Assembly: GCA_005223085.1 (NCBI GenBank)
Contig: NJBP01000080.1
Location: 1-6,569 of the forward strand
Origin: Candidatus Aerophobetes bacterium Ae_b3b
Lineage (GTDB): Bacteria > Aerophobota > Aerophobia > Aerophobales > AE-B3A
DNA length: 6,569 nucleotides
Direction: 5' to 3'
Of this stretch, positions 1-6,569 are shown in pieces. Made by a program: the position numbers and the translations under genes. Within the stretch, counting starts at the first letter, position 1; each line of letters starts with the position of its first letter. The notes below the pieces were generated by a model that saw nothing but the letters and a program-made list of their open reading frames with translations, was not told where the DNA came from and ran no database searches.

Positions 1-496
1 CAGTAGCCTCGGTCCTGGCTACCTGCTTTATCAGATCCTTTAACCTGCGCATTTCCTGGCTCTGGGTGATAATCTCTCCTTTTTTCTCTAGTTCGGCCCG
101 CAGGAATCTATTTTCCTCCCTGAGGTTCTCTTCCTCCATGATTTTATTAGCAATTAATAGAATCTCATCAGGGCTGAAAGGCTTGACTAAATAATCGTAG
201 GCTCCCTTTTTCATAGCATCCACCGCATTTTTAATGGTGGCGTAGCCGGTCAACATCACCACTAGAGTTTGAGGATACCTTTCCCTCATTACTTCCAGGA
301 GCTCCATTCCTCCCATTCTTGGCATCTTAAGATCAACAATGGCAATATTGAAGTATCTTTCTTTAAGCTTTTCCAGTGCTTCTAATCCATTTTGGGCGGT
401 GACCACCAGGTATCCCTTTTTCCTTAAAACATCGCTCAAGGACTGAAGGAAATTAACCTCATCATCAACTATGAGAATCTTGGCTGGTCGAGGCAT
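1..496 (-). CDS. NtrC-family response regulator (C-terminal part beyond window)
   Basis: Reading leftwards from ATG 496-494, the frame stays open to the window edge (165 codons seen). Residues 5-115 form a receiver domain: acidic pocket D11/D12, phospho-acceptor D55 in IVDLKMPRMGG, switch T83 in MLTGYA and K105 in LVKPF. A charged helical linker follows (about 118-140). From about 145 the sequence SQEMRRLKDLIKQVARTEAT resembles the start of the AAA+ sigma-54-interaction domain in NtrC-type activators. Seen: receiver plus AAA+ onset. Inferred: a sigma-54-dependent enhancer-binding protein; the Walker A, GAFTGA and Fis-type helix-turn-helix would lie outside the window. Its start shares one base with the kinase stop (TAATG), so it is probably translationally coupled and the cognate partner of that kinase. 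A receiver-AAA protein with another output is possible but less likely beside a sigma-54 gene. Confidence 0.9.
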   Translation of the reverse strand, partial: MPRPAKILIVDDEVNFLQSLSDVLRKKGYLVVTAQNGLEALEKLKERYFNIAIVDLKMPRMGGMELLEVMRERYPQTLVVMLTGYATIKNAVDAMKKGAYDYLVKPFSPDEILLIANKIMEEENLREENRFLRAELEKKGEIITQSQEMRRLKDLIKQVARTEAT

Positions 497-3400
497 TAAT
501 CTCCTCCTTGAGAGAGCTTCTCATCAAGGGTAGGAAATTCAATAATAAAAGTAGTCCCTTTATCCTCCTGGCTTTCTACTTGAATGGTTCCCCAGGATCT
601 TTCAATGATACCATGAACCAAACTCAGACCAAGACCGGTTCCCTGTCCCGGTGCTTTAGTGGTGAAGAAAGGATCGAAAATCTGGGAAAGATGTTTTTGG
701 GAGATGCCTATCCCGGAATCGGCAATTTTTATTCTCACCCGCTTATTTTCCGTGATAGAAGTTGCTATCTCCAGTCTTCCTCCGTGGGGCATGGCCTGAG
801 TGGCATTTAGGATCAGGTTTAAAAAAACCTGTTTTATCTCATCCACATTTGCTCTAATAGTGGGGTTCTGCTCCAGCTTTTTAGTTAGCTTAATATCTTT
901 AACGAAAAGATCTTTTTCGATTAAGGATAAGGCAACGTTCAAAAGAGAGTTAACATCGATTAGCTCAAGTTCCTTGTCCGATTTCCGAGAAAATTCCAAA
1001 AGATTATTAATTATGGCCTCGCACCGGTTTATCTCTGCCTCCAGGATTTGAAAATGTCTCTTCACATCCTCCTTTTTTTTAGGCAGAACATCGTTTAGAT
1101 AATAAAGGGAGGTGGCCATAATCCCCAGAGGATTTCTTATCTCATGGGCGATCCCGGCAGCTAATTGTCCTATTCCGGCCAGTTTCTCCGATTGAAAAAG
1201 GTAAGCTTGGGAGCGCCTGAGCTCCTCGGTTTTTTCCTTAACTTTCTCTTCCAGCTCTCTTCCCCGGTCTTGAAGCTCTATTTGAGCTTGCTTAAGACTC
1301 GCAATCAACTTTGATTTCTCGATGGCAGTGGCTGCTTGATTGGCAAAGGCCAGCGCCAGGGAAATTTCCTCTTCCCGGAACAGGCGTTTTCTCCGGCTCA
1401 AGAAGGAAAGAGTTCCTAATGCCTGCTTCTTACTTTCAAGAGGCACCCCTAGAAAAGAAATAAACCCTTCTTTCTTAGCCCATTCTTTGCGAAGATAGCG
1501 GGGGTCCTTTTGTACATCTTCAATGACTATGGGTTCTCCCTTAAGGAGTATCTGCCCCAGTACCCCCTCTCCCACGCTCTGCACCTCCAGTGCCGGAGAA
1601 TCTGTCCTCAGATTGTGTGCCTTTACCACCTTTAATATCTTCCGCTCAGCATCAAGCAAATGGATGATGGCCCCATCAACGTTTAGTAGATTTGCTGATT
1701 CCTGGGTAATGGTACTCAGAACCTCATCCAGTTTAAGAGAAGTAGCTACCTGACGGGTGGTATCATAGAGAGCCTTCAGCTCATTGATCCTTCTCTCAAG
1801 ACTCTTCTCAAGATACTTTCTTTCCGTGATATCCCGCACAATAGCCTGGATCCCTATTATCTTTCCTTCTTTTTTAACCAGGCTGAAATTACCATCCATA
1901 TAAACCACTCTTTTGTCCTTGGTCAAAGTCCGAAACTCATAGCGACTCTCCACTTCCTCCCCAGCTAGTCTTCTCTTGAAGCGCTCCATCATTAAAGGTG
2001 CATCATCCGGATGAAGAAAATGAGCAAAGTAAATTTTTTTTAGCTCCTCGGAGCTGTAGCCCACCACCTCAAAAGACTTAGGATTGGCAAAGTTAATATA
2101 GCCTTGAGGGTCCACCATAACTATCATATCATTGGCAGCCTCAAAAAGGCTTCTATATTTTTCTTCTGATGCTTTCAGTTTCTCCTCCGCCCGCTTGCGC
2201 TCGGTGATGTCTCTCATAACACCCTGCACTGCAATTATCTTGCCCTCTCTTGTCACAGGAGTAACATTAATTTCCGTAGGAACAATCTTTCCTTTACTAT
2301 CCAGTTGGTTTATCTTAAAGTTTCTGATTGTTTTTCCTGATAAAACGGTCTTTAGTGCTTCTAAAGCTTTCGGCACTTCACTCATGGGGGTTGTTTTCCT
2401 AAAATGTTTTCCAACAAGGTCTTCGGGTTTATAGCCATAAAGCTCTTTTACTTTGGGACTCACATACTGAATGAAACCCAAGGGGGAGAGTTGAAAAATC
2501 ATATCATGAACGCTTTCTGCTATGGTCCTAAATTTTTCCTCTGATTCTGTAAGTGCCTTTGTCTTTTCCTCTACCTTATTTTTCAGGGTCCGGTTGAGCT
2601 CCTCAGGCTCGCCTCGCCTTAGCTCTATTTCCTCCATCATCTGGTTAAAGCTTTGGGAAAGGAGTCCCAATTCATCCTGAGATTTCGCCTCTGTTCTTTG
2701 AGAGAAATCACCCAATCTCACCCGTTTGATGCCTCCCAGTAAACTCTTTAAGCCTGAGATGATCCACTTGAGGAAAAATAGGCCTATGAGGAACCCTACC
2801 GCTCCCTTAGTCTGCTCAATACTGGAGAAAAGGTATCGATTGGCAATCTTTTGGATACGGCTCTGAATCAGTTGGAAAACAACCACACCGCAAAGCAAGG
2901 TAAGAGAAAGATTAAAAAGAGACGGAAGGGAAAAGTAACTACCCACGGGAAACCAGAGCAAAAGACCAAGGAGAAGAATGAGGAGTAAACCGGCTAGATA
3001 AACGGTGGACTGTCTGATAACCACCCGAATGTCCATAAAGCGGTATTTGAGGATAGCATAAGTGGTAAAGCTAACAAACAAAAGAAATCCACAACTTCCA
3101 GCTCCAGGTATGGCTAGGAGAAATTGAGCACGAAAGAATAAATTCAGGGGCATGGCAACCAGAAGGCTGAACAAGGAGCCCAATAAGAGATAAAGGGTTT
3201 GCATCTTTTTGATGCCCCGAAATTTTCGATATTTTAAGACTAAATCGAGACACCCAGCTCCTGTGTAGATACGTAAATAGGCTACATAGACAGTAAATAG
3301 AGGTCCCATCCTAAAACGAATACCCTGATCATAAAATCTAATCTGGGTGATGATCAAATCGGAAAAGGGGAGCAGGGCAAAAACCGCCGCCGGCAAAAAA

Positions 3401-3699
3401 ACCAAAATCTTTCTAGAGGAGGAAGAAAGTAGATGAACCTCATGAAAACTTAGACAGAACAAGAGAAAAAAATAAACAGTGATGGAGGCAGCAGCAAACT
3501 CTATTCTCAAGAATAAATTGGCGAGAGAGAAAGTGAGGCTCGGGTTTTGCAGGAAGCAGCTCAAAACCCAGATTGAGGCCGAGACGGCCAAAAGAAAAAA
3601 GATTCTATTTATTGGGCCCCGGGGATTTTTAAAATAGACCCATCCCCCCAAAGACAAAATTAACCCCCCTACTACCATACATCCAGTAAAATCTAACAT
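496..3699 (-). CDS. Multi-sensor membrane histidine kinase (about 10 TM - HAMP - PAS - PAS - GAF - HisKA - HATPase)
   Basis: A 1067-residue sensor kinase. Residues 6-280 hold about nine hydrophobic helices with short loops, resembling the 7TM-type N-termini of some kinases. A further helix at about 299-320 leads into a HAMP-like segment (316-363; GDFSQRT, DELG, FNQMM). Two PAS domains follow (about 389-500 and 511-627, each ending in RDITERK), then a GAF domain (about 654-798) and a coiled coil (800-838). The catalytic core is complete: phospho-acceptor H852 in [13 protein letters not shown]-box N965 ([10 protein letters not shown]), G1 DSGIGI 994-999, FDPFFTTK 1008-1015 and G2 GQGTGLGLS 1018-1026. 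W1036 sits where a glycine is usual after the G2 region (SWGTI). There is no sizeable periplasmic domain, so the signal is probably membrane-borne or cytoplasmic. Its ATG directly abuts the sigma gene stop. It autophosphorylates on His and should pass phosphate to D55 of the downstream regulator. An internal ATG at residue 8 is an alternative start. Confidence 0.95.
503..509 (-). promoter_or_regulatory. Ribosome binding site of the response regulator
   Basis: AAGGAGG lies six bases before ATG 496-494, inside the last codons of the kinase gene. This strong Shine-Dalgarno fixes the regulator start and supports termination-reinitiation across the TAATG overlap. Confidence 0.8.
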
Positions 3700-4869
3700 C
3701 TATATCTCATTGGCTAAAAGGATCTCTTTTCCTCTCCGACTAGATGCTGGTATTTTTAGCTCTTTTCTATATTTTGCCACAGCCCGGCGGGAGATGGCAA
3801 TATGGTAATCTCGGTAAAGCCTTGCCTTTATTACCTCATCGCTATAGGAACGGGGGAGGCGGTGGTCCTGAAGGAGGGTCTTTTCTTCTTCTATTAAATC
3901 CTGGAGGTAACTTTTGGTAATCTCCTTCTGGGAAGGAAAGAAAAACTTAAGAGGTAGCTCTTTCCTCTGAGGAGTACTAATACTTTTATCAGCCATAACT
4001 CTGGTAATTGAGCTGGGATGTACTCCTATTCTTCTAGCCAGCTCTCGTCGAGTTAGGGACCGGAGCCTGCCAGGGTCTCCCGAATAAAGATAATCAGATT
4101 GAGTCTCTTTTATGTAGTAAATAATCTGATAGACAGTAGTGGTCCTTCGATTAACCAGATTTAACATTTTAAAAATCTTAGAGATCTGGTTAAGTCTTTC
4201 CGGGGCAAGATTTCTCTTTCGATAAAGTTGTTCGTACCGCTCATAGTTAATAGAGTATTTACCTTTAACCAGATAATCTTCTTTCAGATGAGGATAGATT
4301 ACAAGCTCATCTCCTTCTTTTTCGATAGAGGCTATCTTGAAAGTTCTGGCAGACCGAGAAGGGATGCTTTCGGTAGTGGAAGAAACTGAATCACCACTGG
4401 TAAGCTTTTCTAATTCAAACCTATTTAAGAAGTCTTTGAAAATTACTGTTTGCCTGGGAGTCAACCGACACTCACGCTCGATTTGCCTAACGCTTACCCC
4501 GCCATGTAAAAGCTTATTAAAGCGATCTTCTCCTATTAGCTGCCCAATTTTTTGAAGGAGGGGTACAATTTTGGGATTCTGGTAAAGCAAGCTTTGCAGA
4601 TCGAAAGTATCCGAGGAAAGAATAAGACCGTCCTTAAGCTCAACCGTTAAAGGAGCCCGAATCCCGCTAAATTTTCGGTAACTTACAACTTTCCATTTAC
4701 GGACTAATTCTCTAAATAGAGAATCATTTTCTAATTCTTTAATTAATTTTCTAAACTCTGGCTCGGGAAGAGAAAAGAGCTGACCCAGCTTTATCCTTCC
4801 AATCTGTTTTTGTCTTAAGACCTGGGAGGTCTTTGCTCTCAGAGTCTGTCTTGGAAAGCCCATTTCCAT
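3700..4869 (-). CDS. rpoN: Divergent, short RNA polymerase sigma-54 factor (RpoN-like)
   Basis: A 389-residue protein; typical RpoN has about 430-500. The C-terminal half is clearly sigma-54: residues about 175-270 match the region before the DNA-binding helix-turn-helix, the HTH is 273-293 (TRRELARRIGVHPSSITRV), followed by a conserved-looking DKSISTP and LKFFFPS, and the RpoN box is 360-369 (SRRAVAKYRK; canonical form ARRTVAKYRE), which reads the -24 element. The N-terminal half is unusual. Region I (about 6-55) is recognisable by its leucine spacing but has few of the usual glutamines. The core-binding part (about 56-150) lacks the familiar LDEDGYL and GVGARDL motifs. Inferred role: directs core polymerase to -24/-12 promoters and needs an ATP-driven activator. 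It is first in the operon with a kinase and an NtrC-type regulator, not in the common lptB-rpoN-hpf setting, so it may be a second, dedicated copy. Start M1 is chosen over M3 because GTGAGG lies ten bases upstream. Confidence 0.88.
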   Translation of the reverse strand: MEMGFPRQTLRAKTSQVLRQKQIGRIKLGQLFSLPEPEFRKLIKELENDSLFRELVRKWKVVSYRKFSGIRAPLTVELKDGLILSSDTFDLQSLLYQNPKIVPLLQKIGQLIGEDRFNKLLHGGVSVRQIERECRLTPRQTVIFKDFLNRFELEKLTSGDSVSSTTESIPSRSARTFKIASIEKEGDELVIYPHLKEDYLVKGKYSINYERYEQLYRKRNLAPERLNQISKIFKMLNLVNRRTTTVYQIIYYIKETQSDYLYSGDPGRLRSLTRRELARRIGVHPSSITRVMADKSISTPQRKELPLKFFFPSQKEITKSYLQDLIEEEKTLLQDHRLPRSYSDEVIKARLYRDYHIAISRRAVAKYRKELKIPASSRRGKEILLANEI

Positions 4870-4966
4870 TGAAAATAAACCTCACTTACTTCGGTAAAGG
4901 GCAATAAACTTATCGTAAACATTCAGCGAAGGACGTTCCATGTTGTTGACTGCCAAGAACAGAGCG
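4870..4966 (-). other. Leader of the sigma-54 operon, no clear promoter
   Basis: Non-coding stretch upstream of the operon. I see no convincing -35/-10 pair. TACGAT (minus strand, near 4909-4914) is a weak -10 candidate without a good -35 partner. The TTGGCA at 4951-4956 has no -12 GC at the right spacing, so it is not a sigma-54 site. The real promoter may be non-canonical or lie further upstream, in which case the palindromes and the IS would matter for it. Confidence 0.3.
4880..4885 (-). promoter_or_regulatory. Probable ribosome binding site of the sigma-54 gene
   Basis: GTGAGG on the minus strand lies ten bases before ATG 4869 and sixteen before the in-frame ATG at 4863, favouring the first start. 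Confidence 0.5.
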
Positions 4967-5020
4967 GGTAGCCGCACCCTTTAGGGTGCGTATAAACGCA
5001 GGCTTTAGCCTGCGACTACC
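4967..5020. repeat. BIME-like pair of inverted REP-type palindromes
   Basis: Two perfect 7-bp hairpins face each other. The first is CGCACCC-TTTA-GGGTGCG (4973-4990); the second is CGCAGGC-TTTA-GCCTGCG (4997-5014), with TATAAA between. The outer flanks are GGTAG (4967-4971) and CTACC (5016-5020), so each hairpin read from its own side begins GTAG, one pyrimidine, then CGCA. A GTAG tetranucleotide before a palindrome is the hallmark of REP elements that Y1 (RAYT-type) transposases mobilise, and an inverted pair is the BIME layout. Seen: the palindromes and flanks. Inferred: a dispersed repeat family in this genome. It could also fold as a transcript-end structure between the diverging units. 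Confidence 0.8.
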
Positions 5021-5035
5021 GAGATTGCTTCGCTC
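5021..5035. repeat. Left half of the interrupted target repeat
   Basis: GAGATTGCTTCGCTC directly follows the BIME-like pair. It resembles the left arm of a dispersed intergenic repeat seen in many bacteria, roughly GAGATTGCTTCG..CTCGCAATGAC (from memory, not searched). The matching right arm resumes at 6322, on the far side of the IS. TCGCTC (5030-5035) equals the left target guide of the bridge RNA, and its last two bases are the proposed core TC. Confidence 0.65.
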
Positions 5036-5038
5036 CAT

Positions 5039-5044
5039 TAGACT
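5039..5044 (+). promoter_or_regulatory. -10 half of a circle-junction promoter
   Basis: TAGACT matches TATAAT at four of six positions including TA...T. When the IS ends are joined through one TC core it lies 17 bases downstream of the perfect TTGACA at 6304-6309 (12 bases of right end, TC, then CAT). Junction promoters formed on excision are known in the IS110 family. In the integrated state this -10 has no good -35. Confidence 0.5.
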
Positions 5045-5099
5045 ATATAAGTGTAGAAAATATTGTATAGTGGGACACAGATCTTTGATATAGAACCGA

Positions 5100-5170
5100 A
5101 TAGAGAGTCGATCAAGTCTAAGGTCGCTCAAAAGAAAAACTTACATTGCGAATAAGACCCGACTCTCTAT
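5100..5170 (+). other. Target-binding loop of the bridge RNA
   Basis: The outer stem is a perfect 11-bp inverted repeat, ATAGAGAGTCG (5100-5110) with CGACTCTCTAT (5160-5170). A second stem, GTCT 5116-5119 with AGAC 5155-5158, closes an internal loop capped by AAG-AAAAA-CTT (5132-5142). The 5' side holds TCGCTC (5124-5129), identical to the left flank 5030-5035. The 3' side holds CATTGCGA (5144-5151), the reverse complement of TCGCAATG; the right flank 6322-6329 is TCACAATG, one mismatch at 6324. Both guides end on the core (TC, or its complement GA). Confidence 0.75.
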
Positions 5171-5240
5171 GATGATTAAAGCTATATAGTGTTACCATCG
5201 CTTATAAAGCGATTATTAATGGAGGAAGCTCATATCATCA
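5170..5240 (+). other. Donor-binding loop of the bridge RNA
   Basis: Stem TGATGAT 5170-5176 with ATCATCA 5234-5240, a 3x3 internal loop, then AGCT 5180-5183 with AGCT 5227-5230. The large internal loop is capped by a perfect hairpin, ATCGCTT-ATA-AAGCGAT (5197-5213). The 5' side carries ATAGTGTT (5186-5193), identical to the IS right end 6315-6322. The 3' side carries TAATGGAG (5217-5224), the exact reverse complement of CTCCATTA 5033-5040 at the IS left end. Base 5170 is shared with the preceding stem, so one of the two pairs there must open. The left donor guide matches only the first core base (A at 5194 where C would be expected). Confidence 0.75.
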
Positions 5241-5267
5241 CTCATTCGGTTCTAAAATCTAATTGTG

Positions 5268-5274
5268 AAAGGAG
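5268..5274 (+). promoter_or_regulatory. Ribosome binding site of the transposase
   Basis: AAAGGAG seven bases before ATG 5282. It decides the start: the frame is open upstream to 5189, but that extension runs through the donor-binding loop and adds 31 residues with no family similarity. Confidence 0.85.
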
Positions 5275-5281
5275 TCCCATT

Positions 5282-6307
5282 ATGGCAAAGAACGTTTATT
5301 TTGTAGGGCTTGATATTGCTTGTGACGATTTTGTAGCAAGCATATATCAATCCCCAAAACAATCAGTAATTACCAAAGAAGGCATTGAAAATACCCTTGA
5401 TGGATTTAATGTGTTTATTCCATGGCTCAAGGAGCATGGTTTAAGCAAAACAAATTGCATTATCTGTATGGAAGCAACTGGTGTCTATAATGAAGCCATC
5501 GCTCACTATTTAGCAAGTCAAGGTTTTAGAGTAAGCGTTGAGCCGCCACTTAAGGTTAAACGTGCCTTTGATCCAGTTGGTCATAAAACAGATCCTGTTG
5601 ACAGCAGGCAAATTGCTGAATACGCATACAGATACAGCGATGAACTTAGATTTTGGCAACCTAAGGATGAAATCATCGAGAAAATAAAACATCTTTTGAC
5701 CGCTAGAGAACAATTCACTAAACAAAGTACAGCTATAAAAAATGCTATGAAATCTTATGAAAAACATATTGTTCAAGTGCCCTTGATAGTGAAAGCTCAT
5801 CGCCAAACTCTAAGAGAAATTAAAAAACACATTACTGAAATTGACAAAGAACTAGATAGAATTATACGCCAAAACCCAAGTATCTCTAAGATGAATAATC
5901 AACTAAAAAGCATACCAGGATTTGGCTTGCTTTTATCAGCAAGCTTAATAACTCTTACCGGTGCATTCAGTGATATATCTCATTATAAAACTTTAGCTGC
6001 CTTCTTGGGTATATGTCCTTATCAGCATCAAAGTGGAAAATCTATATACAGACAGCCTCATATGCGATCATTCGGTCCAGCATACCCGCGTAAATTGCTT
6101 ACTCTTGCTGCTCGCTCTGTTGCAACTCACAATGATGTTTTCAAAAAGTACTATGCGCGCAAACTTGCTGAAGGCAAGGCTAAACAGCTTGTACTTAATA
6201 ATATTTCAAATAAATTAATCAAGTTAGCTTGTGCATTGATAAAGAACAATTCTCGATATACAGTTACCTATCGTTCTATAAACCCTATGTTCTTAAATAT
6301 ATCTTGA
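5282..6307 (+). CDS. IS110-family transposase (DEDD / Tnp_20, bridge-RNA-guided recombinase)
   Basis: 341 residues, normal for the family. The N-terminal RuvC-like domain (about 4-160) has the acidic tetrad: D11 in VGLDIA, E64 in CMEATGVY, then D104 and D107 in HKTDPVDSRQIAEYA. A charged helical segment (about 130-200) links to the Tnp_20 domain (about 205-300), with IPGFG 211-215, LAAFLGICP 238-246 and the catalytic-serine motif HQSGK (S251). The spacing closely parallels IS621. Known for the family: a tetramer that, with the bridge RNA, synapses IS ends and target and recombines them at a dinucleotide core, through serine attack with help from the DEDD site and without target duplication. 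Nothing is missing or frameshifted, so it is probably active. The stop lies 14 bases from the right core and overlaps a TTGACA. Expression probably comes from the circle-junction promoter together with the bridge RNA. Confidence 0.95.
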   Translation: MAKNVYFVGLDIACDDFVASIYQSPKQSVITKEGIENTLDGFNVFIPWLKEHGLSKTNCIICMEATGVYNEAIAHYLASQGFRVSVEPPLKVKRAFDPVGHKTDPVDSRQIAEYAYRYSDELRFWQPKDEIIEKIKHLLTAREQFTKQSTAIKNAMKSYEKHIVQVPLIVKAHRQTLREIKKHITEIDKELDRIIRQNPSISKMNNQLKSIPGFGLLLSASLITLTGAFSDISHYKTLAAFLGICPYQHQSGKSIYRQPHMRSFGPAYPRKLLTLAARSVATHNDVFKKYYARKLAEGKAKQLVLNNISNKLIKLACALIKNNSRYTVTYRSINPMFLNIS

Positions 6308-6309
6308 CA
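6304..6309 (+). promoter_or_regulatory. -35 half of a circle-junction promoter
   Basis: Perfect consensus TTGACA overlapping the transposase stop codon (TGA 6305-6307) and pointing outward through the right end. In the integrated element the bases at the correct spacing (6327-6332, ATGACT) are a poor -10. In the circle they are replaced by TAGACT from the left end. Confidence 0.5.
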
Positions 6310-6321
6310 AAGTCATAGTGT

Positions 6322-6331
6322 TCACAATGAC
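6322..6331. repeat. Right half of the interrupted target repeat
   Basis: TCACAATGAC begins with the TC core and matches the TCGCAATGAC arm expected of the repeat, except A for G at 6324. With 5021-5035 it reconstitutes the pre-insertion site. The arms ATTG and CAAT make that site partly palindromic. Confidence 0.6.
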
Positions 6332-6504
6332 TGTTTCAGACGTTGGCTCCCCGGACTGGACAATGTTGATAACAGGTAAATCTCTTCTAATAGCTTCTCG
6401 TCGTCATCCTCTTCATTTGTCAAAGGCTGATCATTGTAGAAAATGCTGCAGTCTCTTCTCAGAGTTCCATTGGGATTAACGATTTCCAATTGTCTTTTTG
6501 CCAT
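6322..6504 (-). CDS. Small hypothetical protein (60 residues), ends at the IS junction
   Basis: An unrecognised small ORF. I choose the ATG at 6504 over the one at 6522 because AAAGGTGG lies five bases upstream of it. The protein begins MAKRQLEIVNPNGTLRRD and has a strongly acidic middle (NEEDDDEKLLEEIYLL) followed by a low-complexity basic tail. It has no membrane segment, no cysteine pair and no motif I know. The stop codon (TCA on the plus strand, 6322-6324) is made of the IS core TC plus the next target base. Because the core was also present before insertion, the reading frame would have ended here in the empty site too, so the IS does not truncate it. The tail overlaps the repeat-like sequence, which lowers confidence that the 3' part is a conserved protein. 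Confidence 0.35.
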   Translation of the reverse strand: MAKRQLEIVNPNGTLRRDCSIFYNDQPLTNEEDDDEKLLEEIYLLSTLSSPGSQRLKQSL

Positions 6505-6569
6505 AAGGACCACCTTTGCCATAAATAACCAATCTTCTTTCCTGCCACTGGATATTATCTTTTTTAAGA

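Follow-up and report, generated by a model that had tools for sequence, protein, structure and literature searches.

A putative bridge RNA in an IS110-group insertion sequence of Aerophobota and Acetothermia genomes, with a left target guide that follows the genomic flank

The window, by which we mean the whole stretch of 6,569 bases analyzed here (contig C12 of genome G000), carries an insertion sequence beside an rpoN locus. The rpoN gene, with its Sigma54 DNA-binding domain, lies on the minus strand within positions 2 to 4869, and beyond it on the same strand a response-regulator-like reading frame follows a large sensor histidine kinase of the PAS/GAF type. The insertion sequence belongs to the IS110 group and occupies positions 5036 to 6323 of the plus strand, a span in which the TC core is included once, on the right. 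It encodes an IS110 recombinase of 341 amino acids (5282 to 6307, plus strand) in an intact reading frame, with matches to the Pfam families DEDD_Tnp_IS110 (5e-26) and Transposase_20 (2e-17) and to the solved recombinases of ISCro4 and IS621 (E of about 1e-28). The catalytic residues of IS621, D11, E60, D102, D105, and S241 (PMC11208158), align with D11, E64, D104, D107, and S251 here, so that five of five are kept; the positions were counted by hand, allowing for a two-residue offset of the solved construct. To judge by sequence, this recombinase is a relative of IS621 and ISCro4 that has retained its catalytic residues, and it shows the DEDD-plus-serine make-up of recombinases of the IS110 group.

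The ends of the element were set by the junctions of its copies in four genomes, namely the window's own genome and copies or fragments in G002, G006, and G098. G002 is an Aerophobetes relative that shares a contig with NJBQ01000049 (Candidatus Aerophobetes bacterium Ae_b3a) and contributes three left ends and one right end; G006 contributes a short left end, and both left and right ends are present in the Acetothermia genome G098. The element is single copy in G000. All left junctions (n = 11, including the window) read ..TC|CATTA(G/C)ACT, and all right junctions (n = 6, including the window) read GTCATAG(T/G)GTTC|, with differing outer flanks in both cases. Every left and every right junction ends in TC, which places the left core at positions 5034 to 5035 and the right core at positions 6322 to 6323 (both plus strand). 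A preliminary description, made from the letters of the window alone, had proposed exactly these ends and this core; since independent copies have the same junctions, we consider both confirmed. Consistent with the IS110 group, the TC core is common to all junctions and to the empty target repeat, and a long left end (246 bases before the start codon) is paired with a short right end (16 bases after the stop). The traits of the IS1111 group, an RNA in the right end and subterminal inverted repeats of 7 to 17 bp, were not found: the RNA lies upstream, and the inverted repeat, AGTC/GACT, is only four bases long. At four loci of G006 and G098 (L083, L166, L168, and L169), truncated left ends are fused to unrelated sequence. 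At another G098 locus (L172), the right end reads ATAGGGTTC rather than ATAGTGTTC, and left end and bridge RNA are unlinked to this locus in the assembly.

No relatives were found in IMG/VR, and the plasmid and phage collections held only relatives below 60% identity (about 30% for the best among the matches listed). Wider sets of 17 Aerophobota genomes and 100 genomes of the phylum of the Acetothermia genome held no further close relatives. Two multicopy IS110 families of genome G077 were considered for donor-guide covariation and set aside as too distant and different in layout.

In the left end of the element, upstream of the recombinase gene, positions 5095 to 5250 (plus strand) hold the core of a predicted bridge RNA, made up of a closing helix, a target-binding loop, and a donor-binding loop. 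In the minimum free energy fold (z of -2.35), a common helix closes two looped arms. With the stems mapped onto five sequences, six pairs were changed on both sides and standard pairs filled 96.4% of the pair cells, compared to at most 41% in slid controls; these counts come from few sequences in three lineages and lean on the structure folded from one of them. A hand alignment that included the donor hairpin gave ten positions at which pairs were changed on both sides. Support for the closing helix is weak. Ahead of the target loop, the window fold has only a weak hairpin in a stretch largely missing in G098, and no conserved 5' stem-loop like that of IS621 was seen in the five sequences. The compensatory changes support the two-loop folding, and guide order and polarity agree with IS621-type RNAs, as had been proposed. 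A covariance model built from this lineage recovers its relatives; applied to the distant G077 loci, it found no bridge RNA. The comparison with known bridge RNA models that the preliminary description had recommended met no counterpart in Rfam, where searches at the gathering threshold and at E up to 5 gave no matching model and one chance hit only.

All four guides were found at the positions given in the preliminary description, on the plus strand. The left target guide (LTG), TCGCTC at positions 5124 to 5129, is identical to the left flank, as had been claimed. The right target guide (RTG), CATTGCGA at positions 5144 to 5151, had been described as matching the right flank with one mismatch; this is true of the occupied flank, TCACAATG, and the guide is the reverse complement of the empty repeat, TCGCAATG, with zero mismatches. 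In three lineages, the left donor guide (LDG), ATAGTGTT at positions 5186 to 5193, is identical to the right end of the element, as stated earlier, with the correction that only the first core base is covered. The guide spans seven bases of the donor plus one of the core, the first, and is followed by A, which is the composition and the span of the LDG of IS621 (PMC11208158). The right donor guide (RDG) is TAATGGA at positions 5217 to 5223, which in three lineages is the reverse complement of TC-CATTA. The eight matches counted previously at the left junction extended to 5224; seven of them are donor bases, and the eighth, a G, pairs with the target base to the left of the core. In IS621, handshake guides directly follow the RTG and the RDG (81 to 82 and 166 to 167) and, once strands have been exchanged, base-pair with the other DNA (PMC11208158). 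By analogy, we propose handshake guides in the target loop at positions 5152 to 5153 (A and T, with A5152 pairing with donor position 7, a T) and in the donor loop at positions 5224 to 5225, where G5224 would pair with target position 7. G5224 lies at the IS621-like handshake position, which explains why eight RDG matches had been counted although the donor supplies seven. Target position 7 is C in the window and in G098 and T in G002, where a G-U pair would form.

Do the target guides follow the flanks in the relatives, as the preliminary description had asked? In the window, LTG and left flank both read TCGCTC, and in G002 both read CCGTTC, at three loci, so that the match there is exact. 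In G098, agreement is imperfect: the LTG GCAGCCGC and the flank GCAGACTC agree at 6 of 8 positions, and one of the two mismatches is in the core; two other G098 flanks, GCGGACTC and ACAGACTC, fit this LTG more poorly. Scored over nine positions at the first locus of each lineage, own pairs of LTG and flank match at 6, 7, and 6 (two G098 loci reach 5), compared to 1 to 5 for crossed pairs. The RTG is nearly constant and faces a constant right flank, and donor guides and element ends are both invariant among the copies found. These comparisons indicate that the left target guide covaries with its flank in three lineages, imperfectly in G098. It may be that within one lineage spanning two candidate phyla only the LTG has been rewritten, following the left and variable half of a repeat family common to many genomes, with the RTG fixed on the constant half; we judge the chances of this reading to be even.

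One potential explanation for the guide matches is chance or base composition in an AT-rich noncoding region, with the matches chosen after the fact. The LTG has only six bases, and by itself it is weak, as in one sequence several 9-mers of the region are an equally good fit to the left flank. However, the noncoding region was shuffled 20,000 times with its dinucleotides preserved, and at most two of the four guides ever occurred together (frequencies of single guides, 0.034 for LTG, 0.0012 for RTG, 0.006 for LDG, and 0.035 for RDG), which bears out the earlier view that chance explains four matches poorly. The ends, moreover, were fixed independently by other copies. Since the LTG is not unique in the window alone, the weight rests on the cross-lineage series, for which we scanned every gap-free register of the alignment of window, G002, and G098, with ends set by the other copies. 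The LTG register scored 19/27 against the left flank (next best, 15/27), the top of 132 registers in three lineages and also the most lineage specific; RTG (22/24), LDG (24/24), and RDG (21/21) were each clearly top. The covariation of LTG and flank at the three G002 loci already contradicts an origin by chance, which we regard as very improbable. Also very improbable is a role of the noncoding stretch as a cis regulatory leader in the recombinase mRNA, with guide matches that reflect remnants of the ends copied into it. The stretch is structured and adjoins the start codon upstream, as a leader would, but a leader has no need of an LTG that changes with the genomic flank, and the paired two-loop geometry is that of IS621. 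Taken together, the window very probably contains a genuine IS110-group, IS621-like bridge RNA element, whose RNA would be expressed and active.

A separate matter is the state of this particular copy. This copy sits in a dispersed repeat that serves as its target, GATTGCTTC..TCGCAATGA. The repeat occurs in 7/7 genomes searched (38 matches in G098 and 31 in G006), and a reversed control gave no match; the commonest form in G098, GCAGACTCGCAATGA, is occupied by several element copies there. A text search of the literature for the repeat sequence gave no useful paper. The left half in the window, GAGATTGCTTCGCTC (5021 to 5035, plus strand), has an unoccupied counterpart on contig C71 of G000, where the repeat is empty, reads GCTTCGCTCGCAATGAC, and matches the LTG in full and the RTG at 8/8. 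This empty repeat lies beside an rpoN locus 94% identical to that of the window, and the second rpoN upstream region is possibly a strain variant within the metagenome-assembled genome (MAG). The match of window positions 4870 to 5035 to the C71 locus (L079; 94%) stops at the left junction, and the right sides differ. The right half of the target, ACAATGAC (6324 to 6331, plus strand; repeat consensus, GCAATGAC), has one mismatch to the RTG, and the right flank is unlike its counterpart in the empty copy. The right side may represent a different site, a later rearrangement, or an assembly join. The copy could be a dead or rearranged remnant whose right flank stems from later rearrangement or chimeric assembly. 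The right flank, which also lies within a low-copy repeated region, the single copy in this genome, and the several partial copies in relatives are in keeping with this; yet neither the reading frame nor the catalytic residues are damaged, and multicopy relatives have an identical right end. We consider a remnant unlikely, if far from implausible, and it would concern this copy only and be compatible with a bridge RNA in the family. Positions 6324 to 6569 contain the end of a 66-amino-acid reading frame, the DNA of which is 89 to 90% identical to contigs C84 and C30 of G000. About 80 bases follow that are 84 to 94% identical to loci in several genomes; these loci, one of them on contig C6 of G000, may belong to a tyrosine recombinase gene.

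On the bridge RNA reading, a mechanism can be proposed in which the left end encodes the RNA and the DEDD recombinase uses it to join a circular form of the element to the target. Excision would join the right and left ends into the donor site ATAGTGT-TC-CATTA. The joined ends would also create a candidate promoter driving the RNA, TTGACA-17-TAGACT, with a -35 half at positions 6304 to 6309 and a -10-like half at positions 5039 to 5044 (both plus strand), 17 bases apart across the joined ends; it is a sequence match only, conserved in most copies. Within the repeat, the pairing partner of the LTG in the target loop would be the bottom strand of TCGC-TC, and that of the RTG would be the top strand of TC-GCAATG. 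The donor loop would pair with the circle junction, and the recombinase would exchange strands at the TC core.

The principle and mechanism have already been published for IS621, and the present element adds a family example with natural half-site retargeting. It extends elements with guide-decodable bridge RNAs to uncultured phyla, and it offers a small natural series, one guide changed and the others kept, as direct sequence evidence for half-site retargeting. The series is base-exact for one half-site, has a longer RTG and a TC core, and could enlarge the set of programmable recombinases.

As in the IS621 and ISCro4 bridge RNA systems of the IS110 group (PMC11208160, PMC11208158), the RNA lies in the left end, the guides follow the order LTG-RTG-LDG-RDG with the same polarity, the LDG has seven plus one bases, and the remaining guides contain the core. 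The catalytic residues, the proposed handshake positions, a short inverted repeat around the donor (AGTC/GACT), and insertion into a dispersed repeat are also shared, and the candidate promoter described above would correspond to the one formed at the joined ends of IS621. In contrast, the core is TC rather than CT, the RTG has 8 bases instead of 4 (certain IS110 orthologues are reported to have longer ones), the effective length of the LTG is about 6 bases, both loops are closed by a helix with no conserved 5' stem-loop seen, the protein is distant, and the hosts are Aerophobota and Acetothermia MAGs. Elements of the IS1111 group with seekRNAs likewise combine a DEDD transposase with a guide RNA, and natural retargeting by guide change has been described for ISEc11/ISXne4 (PMC11187229); their noncoding RNA region is downstream with long subterminal inverted repeats, whereas here it is upstream with short ones. 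A catalogue of 2006 lists REP targets for several insertion sequences (PMC1525189), and ISPpu9, ISPpu10, ISPa11, and other REP-inserting elements resemble the present one in occupying a fixed position in a dispersed intergenic repeat. The repeat family and the hosts differ, and in the present case a between-genome comparison of guide and repeat variant is possible.
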